A DNA stretch of 64,000 nt from NCBI GenBank assembly GCA_024226555.1, contig JAAELO010000848.1, positions 1 through 64,000 on the forward strand. The letters are read 5' to 3'. A program made the translations under genes and the position numbers. The DNA comes from Desulfobacterales bacterium (GTDB taxonomy: Bacteria; Desulfobacterota; Desulfobacteria; Desulfobacterales; JAAELO01). Shown here one piece after another: positions 4,977-61,830 of the stretch. Numbering within the stretch: position 1 is the first letter of the stretch; each line of letters begins with the position of its first letter. The notes beneath the pieces are model-generated. The model was not told the origin of the DNA. It made no database searches and saw only the letters and a program-made list of their open reading frames with translations.

Positions 4977-6830
4977 TTACACCTCCTCTCCTGTATAGAT
5001 ATTTAGCAGCGTCTCTTTTCGCGCTATGGAATAGACTTTAAATACTCCATTATCAGTTATAAAAGCAACATTACCATACATATTATCAACAGTTATAGTA
5101 CTGATTTTTTCAACTGATTTATAGACTTCATAGTAGTTACTTCTGTTTATGATGGATATAGTTTTTTTATCTTTTTCAATCACTATAATGAATGGCACAT
5201 ATTCTCCATTATCATCAGTATAGTTTGAATTATACATAGAAACCCCAATAACTTCGGCACCATCTGGAGGGTTTATTAAACTGTGTACATCAACACCATT
5301 ATCAAGAGTCCACATTTTCCCTTTTGTATTAGTCGCTATTAAGCCATTTGTACCAAATCCCCACCCGTATTCTGAAAAAAATGTTTTGCCACTGCCACCA
5401 TTTTCAAGTTTATATTTTAATGGATCTCCTTCAGGAATTTTTTTTATCTCAATTTCATCCTCCCTTTTTATTCCATATAAAATAAGTGAATGAATGTGGT
5501 AAACAAAAACTACGTTTGATTCGATTTTCTCAAAAATTTCATCTTTATAAAGAATATCTGTTTTATACAAGTCTCGTTTAGAATCAAGAACATAGACACT
5601 TTTTACAGAGTGGTAATAATCATCCTGATCAATAACTGTCCAGAAATTTTCACCCTCTTCAGGAATTTTCAGATCAGAATTTTTAATAGAGATAATATCT
5701 CCATTTTTATTGAATTTATTTAGTTTTATTAAATCCTCTTGAATAGTTATATTAGCACATCTTCTCTTGATGATCTCAAGGCCTGTCAGTTCCTCACCAT
5801 ATTGGGGAAATATATAGCGGGCTTTTCCATGTTGCCCCTTTGCCTGACCTCCTGCAGAATTAGGTATAGAAAGTATCATAACACCACATGAGTCAGTGAT
5901 TTTTTTTAAGGAGCCTTTATGTTTAGAAATACTATGAGCAGTATGAGGATTTTCAACTGTAACAGCTATTTTCCTATGGTTTTTAGAGAAAACAGGAGGT
6001 CTGAAAGGAATTATTTTATGCTTAACTGTATTTTGATGTATATCATCTGAAACCACAGATTCACTCTGAAAAGGATTTCTCAATATTTTTAAGGCATTTA
6101 TTCCAGATGGTAAATCAATACTGAGACTATTTTTAGCATTTGTTTTTTTGTATACATCAATACAAACGCTTTCTTCAAAAGAAAGATCATTGATACTTAT
6201 CAGGCCATTATCTTTAAAAGACCTTTTAAGATTTTCATCGCCAACAATATAGAAATCACTGATATCACCAAGTTCAGTAATTTTAGATTTCCATAATTCA
6301 ATCATATCAGATGATACATCATATGGCGATCCTGCTCTCAATAGATCCATTACGGACTTTTCTGTAACATCACTTCTCCAGGTTTTTTTCTGTAATATTC
6401 CCCAGAAAAAAGCAGCTCCTGACGATTCAGCCCGTCTTGCAAAAAGAATCAATAATGCAAGTTGAACAATTTTAGGTCCTCCAAGCTGCATAGGGCCTGA
6501 ATCAAATAGAAGAACAGAAACAAGTCCCTTTTTATGCTCAATTTTATTTAGTCTGAAATAAAGTTGTTCACCCATTGCAGCCCTTCGGTCAAATTCATGT
6601 GGGATTTCATCGGCTAAGAGCCATTCGGATGGAATCAGATGTTCCACATTTCCCTTTACTGTTAGGCCTTCAAAACCATCTGGTTCATCATTGCCTTTAA
6701 AAACCCCATGTTTTAAGGGCCCAATGGCCACAGATAACCTTAAAATTATCTCACCAAGATCTTTAGCAATTTCATCAGGAAACAGGGACAAAAGAACGTG
6801 CCAGTTTCTCAATCTTTTAGGAAGTATCAT
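4977..6830 (-). CDS. vWA-like domain plus beta-propeller protein of the MoxR ternary system
   Basis: This 617-aa protein is the probable vWA partner. Residues ~60-160 carry the signature of this family: SEWLLADEIPHEFDRRAA, then LLFDSGPMQLGGPK and LALLILFARRAESSGAAFFWGIL. The MIDAS motif is degenerate: the canonical DxSxS reads DSGPM (Asp110), so metal-dependent binding may be altered or lost. The second half (~330-617) has short beta-strand repeats with SGKTFFSEYGWGFGTNGLIA and VDVHSLINPPDGAEVIGVS, consistent with a propeller. Its start ATG overlaps the stop of the upstream 141-aa gene by four bases (ATGA), a sign of an operon. Known family role: MoxR ATPases remodel vWA-containing partners. 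What this complex acts on is unknown. Confidence 0.65.
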   Translation of the reverse strand: MILPKRLRNWHVLLSLFPDEIAKDLGEIILRLSVAIGPLKHGVFKGNDEPDGFEGLTVKGNVEHLIPSEWLLADEIPHEFDRRAAMGEQLYFRLNKIEHKKGLVSVLLFDSGPMQLGGPKIVQLALLILFARRAESSGAAFFWGILQKKTWRSDVTEKSVMDLLRAGSPYDVSSDMIELWKSKITELGDISDFYIVGDENLKRSFKDNGLISINDLSFEESVCIDVYKKTNAKNSLSIDLPSGINALKILRNPFQSESVVSDDIHQNTVKHKIIPFRPPVFSKNHRKIAVTVENPHTAHSISKHKGSLKKITDSCGVMILSIPNSAGGQAKGQHGKARYIFPQYGEELTGLEIIKRRCANITIQEDLIKLNKFNKNGDIISIKNSDLKIPEEGENFWTVIDQDDYYHSVKSVYVLDSKRDLYKTDILYKDEIFEKIESNVVFVYHIHSLILYGIKREDEIEIKKIPEGDPLKYKLENGGSGKTFFSEYGWGFGTNGLIATNTKGKMWTLDNGVDVHSLINPPDGAEVIGVSMYNSNYTDDNGEYVPFIIVIEKDKKTISIINRSNYYEVYKSVEKISTITVDNMYGNVAFITDNGVFKVYSIARKETLLNIYTGEEV

Positions 6831-24319: not shown

Positions 24320-25522
24320 ATGAAGATTTTACATACATCTGACTGGCATCTGGGCCAGAATTTTATGTCAAAAACAAGAAGAAAAGAACATGAATCTTTT
24401 CTTAAGTGGTTAAGAGAACTAATTGATGAAGAGAATATTGATGTTCTCCTGGTTTCCGGTGATATTTTTGATACGGGTAATCCTCCAAACTACGCTCTTG
24501 AACTCTATTACAATTTCCTTAAGGAAATATCAAAGAGTTCTATAAAATCGATAGTTATTACAGCTGGAAATCATGATTCAGTTTCAAACATCGAAGCACC
24601 TAAAGAGCTTTTAAAGCTTTTGAATATAAATGTTAAGGGAACAATAGATGCCGAATATCCAGGGGATAATCTGATTGAAGTTTCCCATAATGGACAGATT
24701 CAATGTTATATTTGTGCTGTTCCATTTATAAAAGAGAGAGATGTAAGATTTTCCATTGCAGGTGAAAGTTATGAAGAAAGAAATAAAGCATACTCAAGGG
24801 GATTTAAAAAATATTATAATGATATTTGTAGTTTAGCTGCAAAAAAACGAGGGGATAATAAAGTTCCCATTATTGGAATGGGCCATACTTTTGCAGCCGG
24901 TTGCAATACATCTGAAGGTGAACGTGAAATATTTATAGGAAACCTTGGGAAAATAACCGCAAACTCTTTTCCGGAAGAGTTTGACTATATAGCTCTTGGT
25001 CATCTTCATAATCCCCAAAAAGCTACTGATAATGAGTTAATTAGATATAGTGGGTCTCCCATATCACTTAGTTTCAGTGAATCAAGTTATGATAAACAGA
25101 TAATTCTGATTGATTTTAAAGATTATCCTGATGATGTGGAAATTGAATCGAAAAAGGTTCCTGAATTTCAGAAACTTTTAAGACTTAAGGGAGACAAAAA
25201 CTCTGTTTTATCATCTCTAAAAGAACTTAATGACAATGTCTGGGTAGAAGTTAATCTTATAAATAGCGTTCCAGACACAGCTTTCCTTGAGGAAATTCGT
25301 GAAATTGAAAAAGAAAATTCATTCGATATTCTTGCTGTGAAAAAATCTGATATGAACAGCTATCTTGTTAAACATGGCGAAAAAGATGTTCAAACCCTTT
25401 ATGATTTAACACCAAATGATGTGTTTGATAAAAGGATTACAAATCTTGAGGATGGGGAGAAAGAGCTTTTAAAAGATGCATTTAATGAAGTTCTTATGAG
25501 GGTAAATCATGAAAATTCTTAG
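24320..25522 (+). CDS. sbcD: SbcD-type exonuclease subunit
   Basis: A 400-aa metallophosphoesterase of the Mre11/SbcD family: ILHTSDWHLGQ (phosphodiesterase motif I), VLLVSGDIFDTGNPPNYA (II), VITAGNHDS (III), GHTFAAG and ALGHLHNPQ (IV-V). It forms the nuclease core of the SbcCD complex, which opens DNA hairpins and processes palindromes, of interest here because the genome is full of inverted-repeat elements. Stop overlaps the start of sbcC by 14 bases. A 53-bp miniature element sits in its leader. Confidence 0.96.
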   Translation: MKILHTSDWHLGQNFMSKTRRKEHESFLKWLRELIDEENIDVLLVSGDIFDTGNPPNYALELYYNFLKEISKSSIKSIVITAGNHDSVSNIEAPKELLKLLNINVKGTIDAEYPGDNLIEVSHNGQIQCYICAVPFIKERDVRFSIAGESYEERNKAYSRGFKKYYNDICSLAAKKRGDNKVPIIGMGHTFAAGCNTSEGEREIFIGNLGKITANSFPEEFDYIALGHLHNPQKATDNELIRYSGSPISLSFSESSYDKQIILIDFKDYPDDVEIESKKVPEFQKLLRLKGDKNSVLSSLKELNDNVWVEVNLINSVPDTAFLEEIREIEKENSFDILAVKKSDMNSYLVKHGEKDVQTLYDLTPNDVFDKRITNLEDGEKELLKDAFNEVLMRVNHENS

Positions 25523-28500
25523 CTTAAGATTTAAAAATTTAAACTCCCTTGCTGATGAGTTTCATTTGGATTTTGAAAATGGTCCTTTGGGGGAAGCGGG
25601 GATTTTTCTAATTAGTGGACCAACCGGTGCTGGAAAAACAACTATTTTAGATGCTATTTGTGTTGCTTTATATGAAAGAACACCAAGGCTTGAGGGTTCA
25701 GGTGTTCGAAACATTATGACCCAACAAAAGGGAGATTGTTTTTCAGAGGTTGAGTTCAATGTTAAGGATAAAATCTACAGATCAAGATGGACACTAAGAA
25801 GGGCTTATGGCAAAGCAACAGGAAATTTCCAGGATTCTGAAAGAGAGTTGTCTGTTTTAGAAGATGGCAACTTTGTTATTCTTGAAAATAAAAAGAAACT
25901 AATAAATAAAAAAACAGCAGATATAACTGGTTTGAATTTCGATAGATTCACAAGATCCATGCTACTTCCCCAGGGAAATTTTGCGGCTTTCCTGGAAGCA
26001 AAAGAAAATGAGCGGGCTGATCTTCTTGAAAAGATGACAGGTACGACAATTTATTCAGAAATTTCTCAGGAAACTTACAAGATCTATAAAGAGGAGCAGC
26101 AAAAATTTAACGGCCTTAAGGCTCAACTTGAAGATATTCTTCCATCAACTGAGGAAGAACTTGTAATTCTAAGAGAGAATAAAAAAAATACTGAGGAAGG
26201 TATTGGAGTTGTCACCAAAGAGATCTCCTCACTTCAGGACAAAGCTGACTGGCTTAAAACAATCGAAATATTAAAAATTGATATTGAGCGAACAATAAAA
26301 AGCCTTAATATTGTTGAAGAGAAAGCAAAAGAGAAAAACAATGATTTTTATAAATTAGAAAAAGCTCAGAAAGCTCAGGTATTTAAAAGTGATTATGATA
26401 AAATAGCACAGATGAAAAAGCTAATCACAAAAAAAGAGGAACACAGTGAGGATTTAAAACGTAAAAAGCCAGGTCTTTCCGAAGAGTCAAAACGATTAAA
26501 AAATGAGTTTGAATCCGAAACAACATCCTACAAATCCTTTAAAAAATTAAAAGAAGAGAAGATCGCTGCAATTGAAAAAGCGATAGTAAAAGACAGTGAA
26601 ATAAAGAGTACTAAAGAATCTATCTCAAATATTGCAAAAAATGAGGAGAGAAAAAAGCTATTATTAAAAGAGCTAACAAAAGATCTGGAAATAAATAAAA
26701 ATAATTTTCAAAGAGTAGGTAACGAAATAAAAGAAAGCAGTGATGTTTTGGAAGAGATTCAATCTTTTGCAAATATTGAAACCACACTATTCTTTCTTAA
26801 AGAGAAGGTGAAAGTATTAGATGCTAAATCAATATCCCTTTCAAAAGCAAAGGAAGATAATCAGAAGATCGTAACTACTCTTGCAAGATCCAAAGGTGAT
26901 ATTGAATCTAAAGAGAAAGATTTAATAGAGATAAGCAGTTCAATTGAGAGTTTTGAAAATGAGTTAAAAGAGATTAGTAAAAATATAGAATCACATTCAA
27001 AGAGCGATTCAGATCCTGAAAAAGATCTTGAAAAACATATGAAATCCATATCTTTCTTTGAAAGTTTAATCAAAACTGAGACTGAAATTGAAGAACTCAT
27101 AAAAGAGAAATTCAATATAACTGAAACTCTCACCAAAAATACCAGTTTTTTAAAGGATTATGAATCTAAGAGAGAGAAAATAAAAAATGATATTACTAAC
27201 ACTGAAAACACAATAAAGGAGTTTGAGGACAAACTTAAACAAGAACTTTTGATCTCAAAATATGAGGATGACAGAGCAAAACTTATCGAAAATGATCCCT
27301 GCCCCCTTTGCGGTTCCAAAGATCACCCTTTTAAAAGTATCACAACTAATGAGAATCAAACTGAGACAATATTAATTGATTATAAAGAAAAGCTTTCATC
27401 TCAATATAAGAATAAAGATTCTGAGAGTGAGAAGATCATAAAGTTAATGACTCAAAATGAACATTTAAATCGCAATTTATCAGTGTGTGATAACAATAGT
27501 ATAAAACAAAATGATATAAAATCTGAGTTGATAAAAACAAACGCTGAGCCTTTTTCACAAGATATATCAGAGTTGAAACAATCTCTTGATTTAAAAATTG
27601 ATGCGAAAAACGAACTTGAAAGAGAGATTAAAGAGTTAAAGTTACTTAACGAAAAATCATCTGTAATTAAGGATAAGATCTCAAAAGAGGAAAAAATTAA
27701 AGGTGAAAAGAGGTTAGCTCTTCAGAAAAGCCGCGATAATATCGTTTTACTGGAAACCGAAAAAAAAATATTGATCAAAAGCATCAAAGAGTACAATGAT
27801 AATATTGATCAGATTTCAACTGAGATTTCAGAAATAGCAGATAAATTTAAAGCTACCTATGAAAAAGGTGATGAAAATAAACTCATAGACTATCTTCAGC
27901 TTAAAGATAAGGAGTATAAAAGTCTTAAGGAAAATCTATCAAAACTTGAGAATAGTTCTTCTGTTTTAAAGGATAAAATTTCAATACAAAAAAATGATCA
28001 AAATAATATTGAAAGGGATTTAAAAGAGATTGATGAGAATTTAAAATCCTTTGATGAAAAGCTTGAGTCACTAAAAACAAAAAGAAATGAGATTTTAAAA
28101 GAGAAAAACATTATTCTTCTTAAAAAGGATCTGCAAAGAAAAAACCAGCTTTACAAAGATAATATATTAATGCTTGAGAAAAGAGAGAACTCTGTAAAAA
28201 CTGAACTTAAAGTAGTTACAGAAAAGCAGAAAGCAATTGATGATGAACTTGTTCAGATCAATAGTGATCTTAAAGCCCTGACATCAGAATTTCTGGAAAA
28301 CATAAAACTATCTGGTTTTGAAAGTGAAGCAGACCTTGCTAAAGATTTAATGGATGAAAACGATAAGAGAGAACTTGAAAAATTAAGAAAAGAGATCGAC
28401 GATGGATTGCTTAGAGAAAAAACAAGAATTGATGACCTTACAAAGAAACTTAATCTTAAAATTGAAGAGAAAAAAACTGATGCTGACATAGCTGATATTG

Positions 28501-29150
28501 AAGGAGAACTTAATACTGCCAGTTTAAAGCAGGATAATCTTAAAAAAGAACTATGGGAAATCAACAATAAATTAAAGATTGATACTGAGTTAAGGCAGAA
28601 AAAGCAGAAACAGATAGATAAAATAGAACTTCAGAGAAAAGAGTTTTCAAAATGGAGTCAGTTAAATGAATTGATAGGTTCCTTTGATGGAAAGAAATTC
28701 AGAAGATATGCCCAGGGACTGACACTTGAGTATTTGATAAACCTGGCAAATAAGCATCTGGTAAAGCTTAACAACAGATATTTCATGAAAAGAAAAGAGG
28801 GTGAGGATCTTGGAATTGATATTGTTGATGATTTTAAAGCTCAACTATCAAGACCTGTAAAAACACTTTCAGGTGGTGAATCTTTTCTTGTAAGTCTTTC
28901 TCTTGCTCTTGGTCTTTCATCCTTGGTAAGTCGTAACGTCAGGATCGATTCAATATTTCTTGATGAAGGTTTTGGTTCACTTGATAAAGACTCTATGGAA
29001 GTTGCTCTGGATGCGCTTGATAATTTAAATGCAACGGGTAAAACCATCGGTATAATTTCCCATATTGATTCTCTTAAAGAGAGGATTTCTGTTCAGTTAA
29101 GGGTAGATAGGAAATCCCATGGTGAGAGTACTCTTAGTTATGCTCTATAA
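25509..29150 (+). CDS. sbcC: SbcC/Rad50-type SMC-like ATPase
   Basis: A 1213-aa Rad50-like protein: Walker A GPTGAGKTTILDAIC (~36-50), long coiled coils rich in Lys/Glu, the zinc hook CPLC (~598-601), then ABC signature LSGGESFLVSLSLALGLSS and Walker B SIFLDEGFGSLD near the C-terminus. It partners SbcD; the pair is one operon with the PHP gene downstream. Its stop codon TAA overlaps the original ribosome-binding site of that gene. A segment of this gene (28231-28360) recurs in a decayed copy at 37431-37560. Confidence 0.96.
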   Translation: MKILSLRFKNLNSLADEFHLDFENGPLGEAGIFLISGPTGAGKTTILDAICVALYERTPRLEGSGVRNIMTQQKGDCFSEVEFNVKDKIYRSRWTLRRAYGKATGNFQDSERELSVLEDGNFVILENKKKLINKKTADITGLNFDRFTRSMLLPQGNFAAFLEAKENERADLLEKMTGTTIYSEISQETYKIYKEEQQKFNGLKAQLEDILPSTEEELVILRENKKNTEEGIGVVTKEISSLQDKADWLKTIEILKIDIERTIKSLNIVEEKAKEKNNDFYKLEKAQKAQVFKSDYDKIAQMKKLITKKEEHSEDLKRKKPGLSEESKRLKNEFESETTSYKSFKKLKEEKIAAIEKAIVKDSEIKSTKESISNIAKNEERKKLLLKELTKDLEINKNNFQRVGNEIKESSDVLEEIQSFANIETTLFFLKEKVKVLDAKSISLSKAKEDNQKIVTTLARSKGDIESKEKDLIEISSSIESFENELKEISKNIESHSKSDSDPEKDLEKHMKSISFFESLIKTETEIEELIKEKFNITETLTKNTSFLKDYESKREKIKNDITNTENTIKEFEDKLKQELLISKYEDDRAKLIENDPCPLCGSKDHPFKSITTNENQTETILIDYKEKLSSQYKNKDSESEKIIKLMTQNEHLNRNLSVCDNNSIKQNDIKSELIKTNAEPFSQDISELKQSLDLKIDAKNELEREIKELKLLNEKSSVIKDKISKEEKIKGEKRLALQKSRDNIVLLETEKKILIKSIKEYNDNIDQISTEISEIADKFKATYEKGDENKLIDYLQLKDKEYKSLKENLSKLENSSSVLKDKISIQKNDQNNIERDLKEIDENLKSFDEKLESLKTKRNEILKEKNIILLKKDLQRKNQLYKDNILMLEKRENSVKTELKVVTEKQKAIDDELVQINSDLKALTSEFLENIKLSGFESEADLAKDLMDENDKRELEKLRKEIDDGLLREKTRIDDLTKKLNLKIEEKKTDADIADIEGELNTASLKQDNLKKELWEINNKLKIDTELRQKKQKQIDKIELQRKEFSKWSQLNELIGSFDGKKFRRYAQGLTLEYLINLANKHLVKLNNRYFMKRKEGEDLGIDIVDDFKAQLSRPVKTLSGGESFLVSLSLALGLSSLVSRNVRIDSIFLDEGFGSLDKDSMEVALDALDNLNATGKTIGIISHIDSLKERISVQLRVDRKSHGESTLSYAL

Positions 29151-55015: not shown

Positions 55016-57907
55016 CTATACGTAATAAGCTTTTTCTCCCCTTTTAAGAAACATATAACCCAGAAAAAGGGAAACGATTATTATGAGCATCCATTCTTCT
55101 GGTTCTGGAGTCCCGGAGACGGTGAAAGGATTATTAGGTTTTGATATAACTTCCTTTCCATCTTCCACTTCCCGTTTAAAGCGGTCATCTTTTTTCTCCG
55201 CTTCTGCAAGGGCTTTCTTCTGTCTTTTGTTTACCAGCACAATCATGGATGAGTATGGTGATACAAGAGAATATTTTTTGGCAATCCTATGAATTTTATC
55301 AAGTTCTTTTATGCTCATTTTTTCCATATGCTGTACCTGCCTGCTGATGTATTGTGATGCAGCAAGGGCTTCAGCACCGGTTTCTTTATACTGTTTTCTC
55401 TCTATACTATTTAAACTTCCTAACGATTCTATCTCCCATGTTATTCCTTTTGTTGCGGCAATCATTTTTTTATTCACTGCTGCCTTTTTCTTAAAACTGA
55501 TTGTTTTAAAAACTTCCTGTATGGAGAGGGTTGTACCACCTAGGCTTTTTTTAATGGTTTCAAGGAGAGCGTCTGTATATGCTGGTGGAATTTGTTTATC
55601 CTGATGAACCAGATAGAGCGGAGCGCTTAGTTTTAAAGAGATTATGTCATCTCCTGATTGTTCATAGCTTCCTTTATCTGTTAGAACAATAATTGCGGTG
55701 TAATTTTTTTTGGCTGCAAGTGAGTGGAATTTATTGACTATGGAGAACATTTGGGCTGGACCGTAATACAAAAAATCATCCTCATTGTTTACTGTATCAA
55801 GATCTTCAATGTTGATGAATTCGGCCTTTTCTTTGTCAAAACGGAAGATATCGGCTTTGATTTTATGTTTTTTGATCCAGGTGAGTGATTGTGCTGTAGT
55901 GTTTTTTATTTTGTTCATGCTGTATGAAGGATCGATTAACAGTGCATATTTCCCTTCAATTCCTTTAAGGGCATCAGCTTTTTGATTGTTCAAAATAGTA
56001 GGTCTGGCCTTTATGAGAACTGAGTCATTTAAAATAAAACTGTGTTGTGCTGGTTTTATTTGATTGTTACTCTCAATCACCGGAGGAAGCCAGGGGCTTT
56101 CGCTGTCTTTGTCAAACTCTTTGCCATTAATTGTGAATTTGGTATCCGCTGACCAGTATGCATTTCTTCTTTCGATAAGTGTCGGCATGGGCCAGCTTTT
56201 GTTCCCGTCAGCCATACATAGGAACCTTATCTTGAGATATAGTTTTTCAGGTTCATTTTTATCCTTATCTCTAAAGATGCGCGCTGGTATAGGAAAGGCT
56301 CGGAGTCTATATTGTCTTGGACCAACCTGTTCAAGCAATGACGGGTCAACTCTTCTTCGTACTTCATTTTTATAGACCTGCTGGGCAGCGCCTCGCGGTG
56401 CTACAACATAGGGAAACTTTTCCGGCCTGGTGCTGTCATCGCTGAGCCAGAGTCCCGTAATTACTGAATTTTCCGGCATGGTAAAATAGTATAATATCTC
56501 CTGCTGCCGGATCGTATGGTTTTCATATACTTCGGAGAGGTAAAACTCTGCCCAGTCCCCATGTTCTGTGAAGCTAAGGGATTGTTTCGTGATAAGAACT
56601 TTTTCATCGTTACTGTTCAATAGTCCCGCTTCATTGCTGTCACGATCCCAGGTAGACTTCATGGCATGTATTATTGCTTCTTTTTCTTCTTTCTGTATCG
56701 GACCGTCAAAGAAGAATTCGTATAGTTTTTCCGCTTTATCCTGATCCCTGAACATTTTGTTTCCGTTGTAGAGAAAGGGCTGGGCGAAAAAGTTGTAGAG
56801 ATTCTGTATGGAGTTTGCGAAAGACCCCTTTTTATCTTTAGATCTGTATTTTGTGCTTTCTTCGTAGAATACTTCTTTGTATATCTCTTCAATATGGTTA
56901 TTTGCTTTTGTGGAGCTGATATAGCGGTATGGAGAAAGGTAGGCGTTAAGAAGCCCCTTTCTTATCGTTTCGGATTCTGCTAATAACTCTTTTTTTTCAT
57001 TTATGGATATATCCTGTAAGTACTGTATATCGCTTTCACCGTCTAACTTTACGGTTTTTATCTTTTCTATGAGTTCAAAAGCTTTAACCTGGGGTTGTGT
57101 ATTAAGAGTAAAAAAGAGAACTGTATTCAAGGAAATTACTATACCAGCAACAAGACCAGCAGGTTTTAGACCGAAGAGGTTTTTAAAATTTTTAAAAGTC
57201 ACATGGAAATTTTTGAAATAGAGTACTATAAGTGCCACAGGCAACCCTATAAAAACCGTTGCTGTAAAAATTAAAAATAATCCAGATATAAATCCCATAA
57301 AGATAAGTTCGCCTTCAAGCAGGATTGGTATAATCTTCCCAATCCATTCAAATTCGAAAAATAATGTAATTAGGTAAGCGCAAAGAGGGATTGCATAAAA
57401 TAATACTATGATAGAAATATATATTCCAATGATTAGCAGGAAAGTACTTCCTGTAAAAAAGATACTGTTTTTATATTTCTCCTGTGGGTCGGTTGCTGAG
57501 AGCAGGTTATACAAATAGACAGCAATACCTGTAAAGAGGAGAAAAAACAGGTGGTATGTTCCTGGGTTTAGTTCACGGAACAGGAAGATCCGCAGCAGGC
57601 AGATCATAAATAGGGGTATCTCTATGCCATAAAACAGTTTTAGCAGTTTTAGGGGTTCTTTCCTGAATTTTGTAATTCCGAGAATTATAGCAGCCAGAGG
57701 AATCAGCATTGCCAGGATAGCAAAAAATGTAAAGTCCATGGGAATAAAACCTGTCATTGTTTTCTTTACTATCGGTACAAGCATATTGGGGATAATAACA
57801 TAGGCGGTAAATATCCCAAATATAAGATTCCATGACCAGAATATACCGTAGGAAATCATCCGTTTATTAAAAATTTTTTTCAGTTTTTTTATATGTGCCT
57901 GTTTCAT
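55016..57907 (-). CDS. PEP-CTERM integral membrane protein with VIT and vWA domains
   Basis: A 963-aa protein: eight or so N-terminal membrane helices (~15-280), a VIT-like domain (~440-560; FYLSEVYENHTIRQQEILYYFTMP, VVAPRGAAQQVYKNEV), a vWA domain with intact MIDAS (LLIDPSYSMNK, ~655-665), and a C-terminal sorting signal: TPEPEEWML, a hydrophobic helix and a basic end (KRGEKAYYV). The signal should be cut by the exosortase encoded 50 bases upstream. The architecture matches the 'PEP-CTERM family integral membrane protein' type that pairs with a dedicated exosortase; I recall this as TIGR02921 with XrtO, not verified. Codons are clearly GC-richer than most of the window. Confidence 0.88.
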   Translation of the reverse strand: MKQAHIKKLKKIFNKRMISYGIFWSWNLIFGIFTAYVIIPNMLVPIVKKTMTGFIPMDFTFFAILAMLIPLAAIILGITKFRKEPLKLLKLFYGIEIPLFMICLLRIFLFRELNPGTYHLFFLLFTGIAVYLYNLLSATDPQEKYKNSIFFTGSTFLLIIGIYISIIVLFYAIPLCAYLITLFFEFEWIGKIIPILLEGELIFMGFISGLFLIFTATVFIGLPVALIVLYFKNFHVTFKNFKNLFGLKPAGLVAGIVISLNTVLFFTLNTQPQVKAFELIEKIKTVKLDGESDIQYLQDISINEKKELLAESETIRKGLLNAYLSPYRYISSTKANNHIEEIYKEVFYEESTKYRSKDKKGSFANSIQNLYNFFAQPFLYNGNKMFRDQDKAEKLYEFFFDGPIQKEEKEAIIHAMKSTWDRDSNEAGLLNSNDEKVLITKQSLSFTEHGDWAEFYLSEVYENHTIRQQEILYYFTMPENSVITGLWLSDDSTRPEKFPYVVAPRGAAQQVYKNEVRRRVDPSLLEQVGPRQYRLRAFPIPARIFRDKDKNEPEKLYLKIRFLCMADGNKSWPMPTLIERRNAYWSADTKFTINGKEFDKDSESPWLPPVIESNNQIKPAQHSFILNDSVLIKARPTILNNQKADALKGIEGKYALLIDPSYSMNKIKNTTAQSLTWIKKHKIKADIFRFDKEKAEFINIEDLDTVNNEDDFLYYGPAQMFSIVNKFHSLAAKKNYTAIIVLTDKGSYEQSGDDIISLKLSAPLYLVHQDKQIPPAYTDALLETIKKSLGGTTLSIQEVFKTISFKKKAAVNKKMIAATKGITWEIESLGSLNSIERKQYKETGAEALAASQYISRQVQHMEKMSIKELDKIHRIAKKYSLVSPYSSMIVLVNKRQKKALAEAEKKDDRFKREVEDGKEVISKPNNPFTVSGTPEPEEWMLIIIVSLFLGYMFLKRGEKAYYV

Positions 57908-57931
57908 TTTTTTTTGTTACTCCCTTATGTG

Positions 57932-57969
57932 TTGTATTTCTAGCAAAATTCTAATTGTTAGAGGGTTCC
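57932..57969 (+). mobile_element. B end of the miniature element between exosortase and its substrate
   Basis: TTGTATTTCTAGCAAAATTC and TTGTTAGAGGGTTCC match the B terminus; no A half is present. It overlaps the last codons of the exosortase gene, whose final Gly-Thr-Leu and TAA come from it. Confidence 0.75.
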
Positions 57970-59541
57970 ATTTAAAATTCGTTTCACTTCCCTGAAAAGG
58001 GTTAAGTGAAATACCTTCATCTTTTTTGTTTCCCAGTCTATTTGCTTATCAAACAGTATGGAAACAAGAATCCAGGTTTTTTCTTTTCCCATAACCTGTG
58101 CCCAGACCCGTGAGGAAAAATCATCTGTGGTGAAAGAGGGGGACTGGAACCAGTACGAAGCTGCAAGATCCCGGTGCTCAAAAGTTAAGGTCTTCACTGG
58201 AAAGGAGCTATTCATAAGAACTGTAGCTGTGGCCGATTGTTTGATAGTAAGGCCCTCTCCTGTGAGACAATCTTCCGGTGAATGGTGGTTTCTCCAATTA
58301 TGGTTAAGGGCGATCAGCATAGTCCCGGAAAGGTTGTTCCACTTAAACTTCTTTTTTACAGCTTTATCTCCCCGATTCTTTTGCAGGAATGAGCTTTCCA
58401 GTTTTGTCAGAGGAACTGGTTTCAGGCTAAAGGAAGCAGGTAACTGCAAATTGAAATTGGTTTCGGCATACGCAGAGAATTGAAGCGTATTTCGTTCCTG
58501 ATGGAGCCACAAAGCAACCAGCAAAAATGGGATCAGAAAAAAATAGAGTTTGATGCTCGCTGACTTACCTGCTTTATCTTCACTGGAGCACTTCTGAGGT
58601 GATAATTCATTATTTGATTTATCTGAGCCGTTTTTGAGCATAAACCAGGCAAAAATACAGGCGAAGATAAAACCTGTTAATCCAAGGGGAATATGGATAG
58701 CTGCGGCAATTTTTGGCATCAGAAGCGCTGTTTCTGTTATAACCAGGATAACTATTCTTAAAATATTAAAAGCAGTCAAAGCTGTAAAAAAAAGAATCAG
58801 GGATACAAACCAGCGTAGGTTAAGCCGTTTTTGTTCCATCCAGGTAGCTGTGAAAAAGAAGAGGAGCCCTGACCAGAGTCCTTTTAAGCCGCTGCATGAA
58901 AGGTCTACCTGAGCAGCGCTGTTTTCGATAATTATAATTGTTTCCCGTGATATATTGGCAATCCCCAATGCTGATAGGGCCTGTTCCGCTATTTCTGCGG
59001 AAAACATGCGCATGGGGAAGCCCAGATATGTATCAAAATTATTACCAAAAGGGAGTGTTTGTATGATCAGAATAACGGGGATCAGACCTTTTTTCCATAC
59101 ATCAAATGGAAGATAGAGACCCAGAAGGCTGTACATGCTCAGAGCAAAGAAGAGGCTTGAGAAAATATTGATTTTGATAAAGTATTCGAGCAGGATATAG
59201 CAGGTAACAGAGCAAATAAGAGATATTAGAGGGGGCCAGTTGAGCCTGAGCCTTATTATCTTACTTTTTACCTGATTTCCAGGCAGAGGATTTTTTATTG
59301 TTTTATTGTATATTTTTTGGATGAGAAGCCCGGTAATTCCAATAAGTATAATAAGGCTTAACCTGTTTGATGAGTAAGAAAAGGATTTTCCGATCCACAG
59401 AATGGTCCGGGAAAACAGGATGATCATAAGTGACCAGAGAACTATATCCGGTATTCTTACTTTATTTTTAAACAGACTTTTGAATAAACTCAAAAAGTTC
59501 TGAAAGGAATATATGTTCTTAATATTTATTGAATGAGACAT
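57958..59541 (-). CDS. Exosortase fused to an EpsI-type C-terminal domain
   Basis: A 527-aa membrane protein with about ten helices. The exosortase catalytic triad is seen as VDLSCSGLKGLWSG (Cys216), FNILRIVIL (Arg262) and AAIHIPLGLTG (His283). After a linker (~303-330) and another helix, the C-terminal domain has NHHSPEDCLTGEGLTI (His420, Cys425), the motif of EpsI-type proteins. It should recognise and cleave PEP-CTERM substrates; the only one visible is the next gene in the operon. The last residues GTL and the stop are from a miniature-element end, so the original C-terminus has been altered. GC-rich codon use (over 50% in places) suggests horizontal acquisition with its partner. Confidence 0.9.
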   Translation of the reverse strand: MSHSINIKNIYSFQNFLSLFKSLFKNKVRIPDIVLWSLMIILFSRTILWIGKSFSYSSNRLSLIILIGITGLLIQKIYNKTIKNPLPGNQVKSKIIRLRLNWPPLISLICSVTCYILLEYFIKINIFSSLFFALSMYSLLGLYLPFDVWKKGLIPVILIIQTLPFGNNFDTYLGFPMRMFSAEIAEQALSALGIANISRETIIIIENSAAQVDLSCSGLKGLWSGLLFFFTATWMEQKRLNLRWFVSLILFFTALTAFNILRIVILVITETALLMPKIAAAIHIPLGLTGFIFACIFAWFMLKNGSDKSNNELSPQKCSSEDKAGKSASIKLYFFLIPFLLVALWLHQERNTLQFSAYAETNFNLQLPASFSLKPVPLTKLESSFLQKNRGDKAVKKKFKWNNLSGTMLIALNHNWRNHHSPEDCLTGEGLTIKQSATATVLMNSSFPVKTLTFEHRDLAASYWFQSPSFTTDDFSSRVWAQVMGKEKTWILVSILFDKQIDWETKKMKVFHLTLFREVKRILNGTL

Positions 59542-59826
59542 TATTTCAGCTTCCTTTTTTGATCCCAGTTTCCTTTAATTTATAAAAACTATGTGAAAAG
59601 ACTATGAAGTGAATGTGAATTCCTGAAAATAATATAATTTGATATGGAACAGGTCTGGGTTTTAATTCTTTGATAACTTGAAATCAATAATGTTGTATTC
59701 TCTTTATTTCAGGCTAACCACAGCTTTTCTTATTTACAGTCCAGGTTTATGATGTTAAAAGATTCCTCTAAGCAATTACACTAAAATTATTAAATTTAAC
59801 AAAACAGGAAATTTGAGGAGTGACAC

Positions 59827-60759
59827 TTGGGTACAATTATAAGTTTAATAAATTTAAAAGGTGGTGTTGGAAAGACAACTTGCTGTGTAAATATTGCTGG
59901 TGAATTTGCAAACAGTCACAAAAAGGTTTTAGTTATAGATATGGATACTCAGGCTAATGCCTCTGTTCTTCTTATGAACCCTGTGAATTATAATCGTAAG
60001 ATATTATTGGAAAATGAAAATAACAACTCTGAAAACAATATTATATCAAAAACTATCTATCAGGTTTTTCGTGATGAAATCTATGATGAAAAAAAATTTT
60101 CATTTGATAATACAATTATAAAATCAGTAATAAAAATAAATGGGAATAAGAGGATGGCTCAGGAACCTCTTCCAAACCTTGATCTCATACCTACAACATA
60201 CCATTTACAAACTCTTGAACAGAATATAGTAAACTATGATCGAACTAAATACATTATTTTAAATAAAGTACTGAAAAAAATTAAGGATAAATACGATCTG
60301 ATTTTCATTGATTGCCCACCAAATATTTATACAGCAACAAAAAATGCATTATACGCATCAGACTTTTATATAATACCTACCTTACCTGATTATTTATCAA
60401 TGAGCGGCATTCACCTTTTAATTAACCAGCTTAACAAGATAATTGAGATAAAAGAGGAAGAAACTGAAAAATCAGTTAAGTTGCTTGGTATACTATTAAA
60501 CAATGTAGATGGTCGAACAAATGTACATAAAGAAGGCATAAAAAATATTGGTCACAGGCTTGATTTATTTAAACAGGAGAAGATGGTAAATGAGAATGCT
60601 GTAATTTTTAACACAAGAATTTCGAAAACGGTAAAAATTAATGAAGCATCAGGAGAGTTTCTGCCCATCTGTTTAAACTCACCAAGGGATAAAGCAACAG
60701 GCGAATTCAAGTCACTTTGTACTGAAATTTTAGATCAGATTTCGGTAAATAAGGAGTAA
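59827..60759 (+). CDS. ParA/Soj-family ATPase
   Basis: A 310-aa P-loop ATPase: TTG start with GAGGAG six bases upstream. Deviant Walker A KGGVGKTT (11-18), Walker A' VLVIDMDTQANAS, and Walker B YDLIFIDCPPNIYT; the C-terminal half contains LPDYLSMSGIHLLINQL, all standard ParA features. It is slightly longer than Soj because of a ~35-residue insertion near 55-110 (NENNNSENN...). No ParB or parS is adjacent. Instead two small genes follow at 5-base and 1-base spacing, one a probable nuclease. This argues for a role other than chromosome partition. Confidence 0.92.
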   Translation: MGTIISLINLKGGVGKTTCCVNIAGEFANSHKKVLVIDMDTQANASVLLMNPVNYNRKILLENENNNSENNIISKTIYQVFRDEIYDEKKFSFDNTIIKSVIKINGNKRMAQEPLPNLDLIPTTYHLQTLEQNIVNYDRTKYIILNKVLKKIKDKYDLIFIDCPPNIYTATKNALYASDFYIIPTLPDYLSMSGIHLLINQLNKIIEIKEEETEKSVKLLGILLNNVDGRTNVHKEGIKNIGHRLDLFKQEKMVNENAVIFNTRISKTVKINEASGEFLPICLNSPRDKATGEFKSLCTEILDQISVNKE

Positions 60760-60764
60760 GTAAA

Positions 60765-61358
60765 ATGGCTCAGCAGGAAGTAATTAAAAAAATAACTGAA
60801 ATACTTAATTTTTTATTTGTAGAATCTGATTACAATAAACTGGATCAGGATAAGGTTGTTAAAACAGTATGTGAGTTTGAAGATAAAATCCGTGATTGTT
60901 TTAAGAAGGATAATGAAATTGAATTGTTTTTTCAGAGCAAAGAAAATTTTCGAACAATTAGTGATCTCAAGACATTTGTAAAAAACAAATTAGAAATAAA
61001 GATAACTTCAACAAAAAGGAGTGATATTGAAAATGAATTATCTCTAAAATGTTTGGAACAAAATTTTGATATTGTTTTTTTAAAAAAGAATTTGCAGCAA
61101 AAAGAAAAATTAAAAAAGAAAATTAAATCATCTAAAAAAATAGAAAATAAAGCGGTCTACTGGTTTGGTTTATCCGAAGATGAATTAATTAAAGATTTGA
61201 ATAGTACAAAAAAATATTCCTCAATATTTGTTCTAAAGGAAGCTGCTAAAACTCTTTTAAATTCAAAACAAAAAAAACTTAAAACAAGAAAAAGTATAAT
61301 TTATGCAATCATTGCTACTGTAAAGAAAGAGAAATCAACCATGCAAATCGGTTCCTGA
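60765..61358 (+). CDS. Hypothetical helical protein between ParA and nuclease genes
   Basis: A 197-aa lysine- and glutamate-rich, all-helical protein. It has no signal peptide or membrane helix. Residues ~1-60 (VIKKITEILNFLFVESDYNKL) and ~130-190 (YWFGLSEDELIKDLNSTKKY, VLKEAAKTLLNSKQ, then basic KKLKTRKSIIYAIIATVKKEK) look like small helical domains with a basic C-terminal tail that could bind DNA. GGAGTAAGTAAA is its ribosome-binding site. I do not recognise the family. Its place in a tight three-gene operon suggests it bridges the ParA ATPase and the nuclease. Confidence 0.75.
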   Translation: MAQQEVIKKITEILNFLFVESDYNKLDQDKVVKTVCEFEDKIRDCFKKDNEIELFFQSKENFRTISDLKTFVKNKLEIKITSTKRSDIENELSLKCLEQNFDIVFLKKNLQQKEKLKKKIKSSKKIENKAVYWFGLSEDELIKDLNSTKKYSSIFVLKEAAKTLLNSKQKKLKTRKSIIYAIIATVKKEKSTMQIGS

Positions 61359-61359
61359 T

Positions 61360-61830
61360 ATGACTTTATATGATAGTTCATTTTTAAAAAAAATATCGGA
61401 AAGAGAACTTCAACATCTACTTGAAATTCACCCATACCTTATTAAACCTAAATTTATAGCAGCAACTTATGAACCACAGAAGAGATTAAAATCCGGGCTG
61501 GCTGATCTTGTTTTCTATCTGAAAAATGAGATCATTATTGTTGAGTTAAAAATAGTACCTCTTGATAATAGTTGTGTTCTTCAACTGAATGGATATTTAA
61601 ATGATATCAAGGAACTGTTTCCAGAAAGAAAAATATCAGGAATTATCGTTGGAGAAAAACCAAAAGAAAATGTATTAACACTCGCAGGCAATCTTGATTT
61701 TCCAATCGAAGTAAAAATAATTAATGATGATATTCCAATTTTTATTAAAATCTGTGACAAATGCAGAAAAGCAAATGACAAAACAAACAGATCATGTGTT
61801 TTTTGTAATAGCAAAAGATGGTTAGGTTAG
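61360..61830 (+). CDS. NucS-like PD-(D/E)XK nuclease with C-terminal zinc ribbon
   Basis: A 156-aa protein that begins LKKISERELQHLLEIHPYLI, like the NucS/EndoMS C-terminal nuclease domain. It contains the PD-(D/E)XK core: LADLVFYLKNEIIIVELKI with Asp49, Glu62 and Lys64, then VLQLNGYL (Gln75) as in NucS. Residues 132-149 carry C-x2-C...C-x2-C (CDKC, CVFC), a zinc ribbon. It lacks the usual NucS N-terminal DNA-binding domain; the zinc ribbon may replace it. The start ATG is one base after the previous stop, with no own ribosome-binding site, so translation is coupled. Probable DNA endonuclease. Confidence 0.8.
   Translation: MTLYDSSFLKKISERELQHLLEIHPYLIKPKFIAATYEPQKRLKSGLADLVFYLKNEIIIVELKIVPLDNSCVLQLNGYLNDIKELFPERKISGIIVGEKPKENVLTLAGNLDFPIEVKIINDDIPIFIKICDKCRKANDKTNRSCVFCNSKRWLG

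Follow-up and report, generated by a model that had tools for sequence, protein, structure and literature searches.

A three-gene operon encoding a ParA-type ATPase, a middle protein and a NucS-like nuclease was analysed in the window, which is the whole stretch of 64,000 nucleotides under study. The trio is not a chance arrangement, because the same order with homologous ParA and nuclease recurs in three further genomes. The reading which we prefer, with a probability of about 45%, is that the operon is accessory: a small, fast-evolving adaptor would connect the ParA to a DNA nuclease, which the ParA transports or controls, and the most likely role is defence against plasmids or phages, or else abortive infection. 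The evidence for such a module consists of the trio order at four loci, an invariant active site and zinc ribbon, a coherent ParA clade, a sparse distribution and the other effectors occupying related slots. Against this reading stand the window, which holds no defence or mobility genes, its middle protein, which is unlinked by sequence, and two related loci (L211 and L212) without the nuclease.

Operon structure

The reading frames of the ParA, the middle protein and the nuclease all lie on the + strand at 59827-61830 of the window and are separated by gaps of 5 and 1 bases, exactly as the original prediction had placed them. It had also stated that ParB is missing, and neither the ORF list nor Pfam revealed a ParB-like gene among the ORFs neighbouring the operon. 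The features of the operon and of related loci are summarized in Table 1.

Table 1. Positions of the operon features in the window and of operons in related loci
Feature	Sequence	Position	Strand	Basis or remark
GAGGAG Shine-Dalgarno of ParA gene (TTG start)	window	59815..59820	+	sequence
ParA-type deviant Walker A ATPase, 310 aa; inserted loop about aa 50-113; motif PDYLSMSGI	window	59827..60759	+	AAA_31 143 bits; Soj-type PDB relatives; conserved in 6 loci; clade 99/97
KGGVGKT motif (aa 11-17), signature lysine of ParA/MinD ATPases	window	59857..59877	+	invariant in ParA alignment
AAGGAG Shine-Dalgarno of middle gene, within the end of the ParA gene	window	60751..60756	+	sequence
Middle protein, 197 aa, lysine-rich; proposed ParA-to-effector adaptor	window	60765..61358	+	slot filled in every related locus; no family match
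NucS_C-type PD-(D/E)XK nuclease with C-terminal zinc ribbon, 156 aa	window	61360..61830	+	Pfam NucS_C; PDB 2vld; four homologues
Catalytic core residues Asp49, Glu62, Lys64 of nuclease	window	61504..61551	+	invariant in 5 sequences
Zinc ribbon Cys132, Cys135, Cys146, Cys149 of nuclease	window	61753..61806	+	invariant in 5 sequences
ParA; middle; nuclease	L219	4499-5422; 5422-6114; 6111-6590
ParA; middle; nuclease	L222	up to 5012; 4978-5628; about 5607-6134
ParA, small protein, HEPN-like operon of Lactococcus phage PLg-TB25	L204	4076-6073
ParA, small protein, HEPN-like operon of Streptococcus phage Javan1	L205	4025-5966		small gene unannotated
ParA, small protein, HEPN-like operon of Lactobacillus phage LF1	L207	3977-6042		third gene annotated carboxypeptidase D-like

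Nuclease

The nuclease was matched by the Pfam NucS_C model over aa 13-110 with 25.1 bits (cut-off 24) and by NucS of PDB 2vld with E=0.0089. The NucS equivalog model gave a score of 33.9, which did not reach its cut-off of 216. Just 12 residues precede the catalytic domain, and the nuclease lacks the N-terminal half with which NucS binds DNA and dimerises; the predicted NucS-like character thus holds for the catalytic domain and fails for the rest of the protein. In the alignment of five nuclease sequences, no variation was seen at Asp49, Glu62, Lys64, Gln75, Tyr79 or any of the four ribbon cysteines; the zinc ribbon (Cys132/135/146/149) and the core residues (D49, E62 and K64) named in the original prediction are thus both conserved. 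Smith-Waterman comparison of the window nuclease with each of the other four gave a Z of 11-21, expressed as standard deviations above 300 shuffles for each pair, and the five proteins are clear homologues.

Distribution of the trio

When 395 genomes of the phylum were searched with the ParA, relatives turned up in G226, G315 and G446. The full operon of G446 (L213) encodes ParA, a middle protein of 232 aa and a nuclease of 155 aa, which contains RLDIAFVTNKTVYLVELKKR and a C-terminal CPAC/CPVC ribbon. The nucleases of L219 to L222 were found with a profile of the window and L213 nucleases, searched in the class of G446. The order ParA, middle protein, nuclease is present in the window, L213, L219 and L222, that is in three further genomes of the phylum, and the three genes are conserved together, a point on which the original prediction had depended. 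The carriers are several distantly related bacteria. L220 is a nuclease copy at a contig edge, its operon being cut off by the contig end. In L221 (5817-6146) the nuclease gene has decayed, a stop standing in place of the catalytic Glu codon; this copy shares its genome with the intact L219 operon, and no ParA or middle gene was detected in its surroundings.

The nuclease and the middle protein were found in 1 of the 96 relatives, strong matches in 2 of the 395 phylum genomes and profile matches in 4 of the 42 genomes of the class of G446; the trio is sparsely and sporadically distributed. When the plasmids of PLSDB were searched by tblastn with the nuclease and the middle protein, the outcome was NucS-like matches or nothing. 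Single-protein scans of viral contigs revealed no relative of the nuclease. A phylum-wide search for the NucS_C family was dominated by unrelated frames of 120-140 aa and larger and showed no ParA-linked locus among the loci examined, and a pattern-based scan of genome contigs returned mostly ordinary Soj-ParB loci.

These counts bear on a role in DNA repair or replication surveillance, in which a NucS-like enzyme would nick mismatched, branched or single-stranded DNA once ParA and the middle protein have brought it to the nucleoid. Such a role agrees with a catalytic domain closest to NucS, with a zinc ribbon that could bind damaged or single-stranded DNA and with the ordinary chromosomal genes around the window operon, including sbcD/sbcC-like genes 30 kb off. 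Repair genes are, however, normally kept within a lineage, and the trio is missing from 95 of the 96 relatives and, at strong score, from 393 of the 395 phylum genomes; as the enzyme also lacks the N-terminal half that NucS uses for DNA binding and dimerisation, the repair role is unlikely.

ParA phylogeny

The window ParA showed 143 bits against Pfam AAA_31 and carries the deviant Walker A motif KGGVGKT. The inserted loop noticed in the original prediction is judged to be real, because ParA residues 46-114 correspond to just 47-79 of PDB 8ray in the structure-database alignment; it is also present in related ParAs. The tree of 53 sequences placed the window, L213, L219, L222, L211 and L212 in one ParA clade with support 99/97 and grouped chromosomal Soj apart from it with support 100/100. 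This separation, together with the missing ParB, upholds the earlier statement that the operon is not an ordinary partition cassette. In a large neighbouring clade of the tree, the next gene encodes a SAP-like small protein.

L211 and L212 lie inside the same clade and hold ParA and the middle protein without the nuclease. As they are nested within the nuclease clade, the nuclease was probably lost in their lineage or else gained more than once, and since both genes are kept alone there, the pair may work without the nuclease. The same two loci are what favours the view that the pair positions some other, unknown cargo on its own and that the nuclease is an independent fellow traveller. Such independence is improbable, as the nuclease comes directly after the pair in all four intact loci, from at least two families, and is separated from it or overlaps with it by a few tens of bases at most.

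Middle protein

The window middle protein gave no match above cut-off in Pfam, NCBIfam, PHROGs or PADLOC. The middle slot is occupied in every related locus by strongly divergent sequences: those of L213, L219 and L222 are mutually homologous and those of L211 and L212 are homologous to each other, and profile comparison and shuffles linked the window protein to none of the other loci's middle proteins beyond chance. The middle protein is thus fast-evolving, the window copy having no statistically supported homologue. Its single-sequence AlphaFold model is mostly helical, but its confidence (pLDDT 39.6) is too low for the model to be informative. Two candidate relationships were also rejected, as profile comparison and shuffles supported neither homology with the small proteins of the HEPN-type operons described below nor the two SAP-like motifs of an early reading by eye.

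The small protein of L085, from the sister ParA clade, gave a good model (pLDDT 82, from 15 sequences). The C-terminal part of this model aligned best with a region of 3'hExo (Z 6.7, rmsd 2.1, 58 residues) and the model also aligned, among others, with YqbF and, at Z 4.1-4.5, with DEK, all these Z values being below the level that proves a shared fold alone. The aligned stretches of the three proteins are those which we take to hold SAP-type domains. It is a reasonable inference from the model that the middle slot of the sister clade may hold a DNA-binding adaptor; to place such an adaptor in the window's middle slot would be an extrapolation from that clade.

A widespread and apparently unnamed two-gene pair was observed in which ParA is joined by a 126-200-aa protein with a SAP-like C-terminus (LxxLKDxxAxxGMDPxKLxMKWK). 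It includes L085, L079, L077, L087, L080, L068, L081, L134, L133 and others and occurs in actinobacteria, firmicutes and many viral contigs.

Related ParA operons with other third genes

Related ParA operons were recovered by similarity and by the motif P-D-x-L-S-x-x-G, and their plan is ParA, small protein and third gene. In L015, L017, L018, L126 and the phages PLg-TB25, Javan1 and LF1 the third gene is DUF5677/HEPN-like and its product has 226-277 aa; the L126 copy is DUF5677 over the cut-off, and the others share an R-x-x-(L/I)-E stretch and a conserved His. The label HEPN-like is our assumption from knowledge of such folds. To our knowledge, this operon of temperate phages is apparently unnamed. 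The L016 ParA gene is directly followed by that of a HEPN-domain protein, which scores 21.9 bits (cut-off 22). In the same region (L202, 6488-10558) these two genes stand in one operon with that of an 892-aa protein, which carries a second ATPase motif, of the GGVGR type. In a Nitrosospira MAG (L147, 5515-8335), ParA, a 97-aa protein and a DUF2779 protein (142 bits) stand in one operon, possibly another ParA-effector combination, and L007 and L012 have an AAA/SMC-like ATPase as the third gene. Such third-gene domains (HEPN, DUF2779, AAA/SMC-like) are mostly common among defence effectors. Since the HEPN-type ParAs are placed elsewhere in the 53-sequence tree than the nuclease-type ParAs, the shared plan of ParA, small protein and effector may be convergent.

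An invariant C-terminal Trp is common to the small proteins of the HEPN group. In McdB adaptors an invariant C-terminal Trp is needed for cargo binding (PMC11321042), and the partners of ParA/MinD ATPases are extremely diverse (PMC12204374; PMC10241942). The likeness between the two groups of small proteins is treated as an analogy and not as homology.

The slot filled by HEPN-like proteins, which are often toxins, also bears on a toxin-antitoxin-like unit, addictive and not defensive, in which the nuclease is a toxin held back by ParA and the middle protein. The tight coupling of the genes and the final position of the nuclease would suit such a unit. Yet L211 and L212 retain the pair and have no nuclease, and the decayed L221 nuclease exists without a detectable ParA or middle gene, which renders this explanation very doubtful.

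The LF1 and Javan1 operons sit between repressor and integrase and the L018 copy comes after the endolysin region of a prophage, both being sites typical for accessory genes. A partition function would be pointless for LF1 and Javan1, given this position. The observation is relevant to a further explanation, that the window operon serves the maintenance or partition of an integrated plasmid-like mobile element; the middle protein would then be a divergent ParB, and the nuclease an accessory. The best phage family for the window ParA is PHROG 164, 'ParA-like partition protein', the window ParA matches plasmid ParAs at about 30% identity, and its relatives include copies carried by phages and by a mobile element. 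The HEPN-type operons are, however, found in integrase-bearing phages, which need no partition system; the nuclease and the middle protein occur in no PLSDB plasmid, and no replication gene was found among the ORFs neighbouring the window operon. Element maintenance is therefore a doubtful explanation.

Genomic neighbourhood and defence context

The window operon is flanked by an exosortase O gene and small unrelated genes, and no defence or mobility genes were found around it; it does not lie in a defence island. The exosortase O gene (TIGR04489, 405 bits) adjoins that of a 963-aa VIT-domain membrane protein whose C-terminus ends in PEPEEWMLIIIVSLFLGYMFLKRGE, a likely sorting signal; the two together span 55016-59541 and are divergent to the operon. 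An sbcD/sbcC-like exonuclease gene pair, recognised by sequence, was observed at 24320-29150 of the window, 30 kb from the operon.

Downstream of the L222 operon lie an Eco57I-type N6-methyltransferase, within 1 kb, a GHKL ATPase and unknown genes, and a PemK/MazF toxin is present near L219. In Vreelandella boliviensis (L126, 23-8351), genes for an SMC-like DUF3584 protein and a sub-threshold DUF4194 protein (Wadjet/MksBEF-like) stand directly upstream of ParA, the small protein and DUF5677. Across related loci, the signs of a defence-island setting are no more than suggestive. The proposal of a defence module made in the original prediction is therefore supported indirectly, by the different effectors in the same slot and by prophage and R-M/Wadjet-like neighbours elsewhere, and finds no support in the window itself, which has no defence island.

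No PADLOC system model was matched; the only hits were weak and partial, namely PDC-M28B over 35 aa of the ParA and Cas4_II and PDC-S02 for the nuclease. No system of ParA with a nuclease or HEPN protein was found in the open-access literature that was searched, and the main text of the DefensePredictor paper leaves ParA unmentioned. Within this partial coverage, the literature and PADLOC agree with the original prediction that no system of this composition has been described.

Proposed mechanism and significance

ParA/MinD ATPases dimerise with ATP and bind DNA non-specifically; their ATPase is stimulated by a partner, and the cargo is linked by that partner. The simplest reading by analogy is that the nuclease would be the cargo of ParA. 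Dimers of ATP-bound ParA would coat the nucleoid, and the adaptor would join ParA to the nuclease as McdB joins McdA to carboxysomes, so that the nuclease would be kept placed or restrained on host DNA under ATP control. Held on the nucleoid, it could survey DNA; foreign DNA, or phage damage to the nucleoid or to the ATPase cycle, would alter the ParA state, and the nuclease would be released and cut. More tentatively, such operons could represent a new class of immune system that uses a ParA/MinD ATPase as its sensor or positioning engine. Nucleoid-bound ParA and the fast-evolving adaptor would hold one of several interchangeable effectors (a NucS-type nuclease, a HEPN-like RNase, a DUF2779 protein or an AAA ATPase) on the host chromosome, and the effector would be released or activated once the ParA-nucleoid state is disturbed by foreign DNA or by a phage taking over the cell.

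ParA/MinD ATPases are present in nearly all bacteria, and many are 'orphans' without a known partner or cargo. An operon linking one ParA lineage to a nuclease, and its relatives to HEPN-like or other effectors, offers a testable role for the orphans, namely spatial or ATP-state control of effectors. If true, this would be a type of regulation so far undescribed among nuclease-based defence systems. The ParA-effector plan may also explain the 'partition' annotations of phage genes adjoining integrases.

Comparison with known systems

The PD-(D/E)XK catalytic domain with G-x-x-D...E-x-K is common to NucS/EndoMS (NucS_C, PF01939; PDB 2vld) and the window nuclease, which differs in lacking the N-terminal DNA-binding/dimerisation half, in its C-terminal zinc ribbon and in being encoded together with ParA and the middle protein. 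With ParABS (Soj/Spo0J and plasmid ParA) the window shares a ParA ATPase with the signature lysine of KGGVGKT. In contrast to ParABS, it has no adjacent ParB or known centromere-binding protein (Pfam, NCBIfam, PHROG), its operon includes a nuclease, and its ParA has an inserted loop and belongs to a clade apart from Soj.

The phage operons with DUF5677/HEPN-like genes (PLg-TB25, Javan1, LF1) have the same order of ParA, small protein and effector as the window. Their effector is HEPN-like and not a PD-(D/E)XK nuclease, their ParAs stand elsewhere in the tree, and their small proteins have no demonstrable homology to the window middle protein.

McdAB and other ParA/MinD positioning systems combine a ParA/MinD ATPase with a small, highly divergent partner, which there links the cargo. 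A ParA/MinD ATPase with a small adjacent gene is likewise present in the window, L211-L213, L219 and L222, the likeness being one of position and size, with homology to McdB not established. The presumed cargo would be the nuclease or another effector instead of an organelle or DNA. The trio would thus belong with ParA-adaptor-cargo modules, and there is a real chance of its being a new class.
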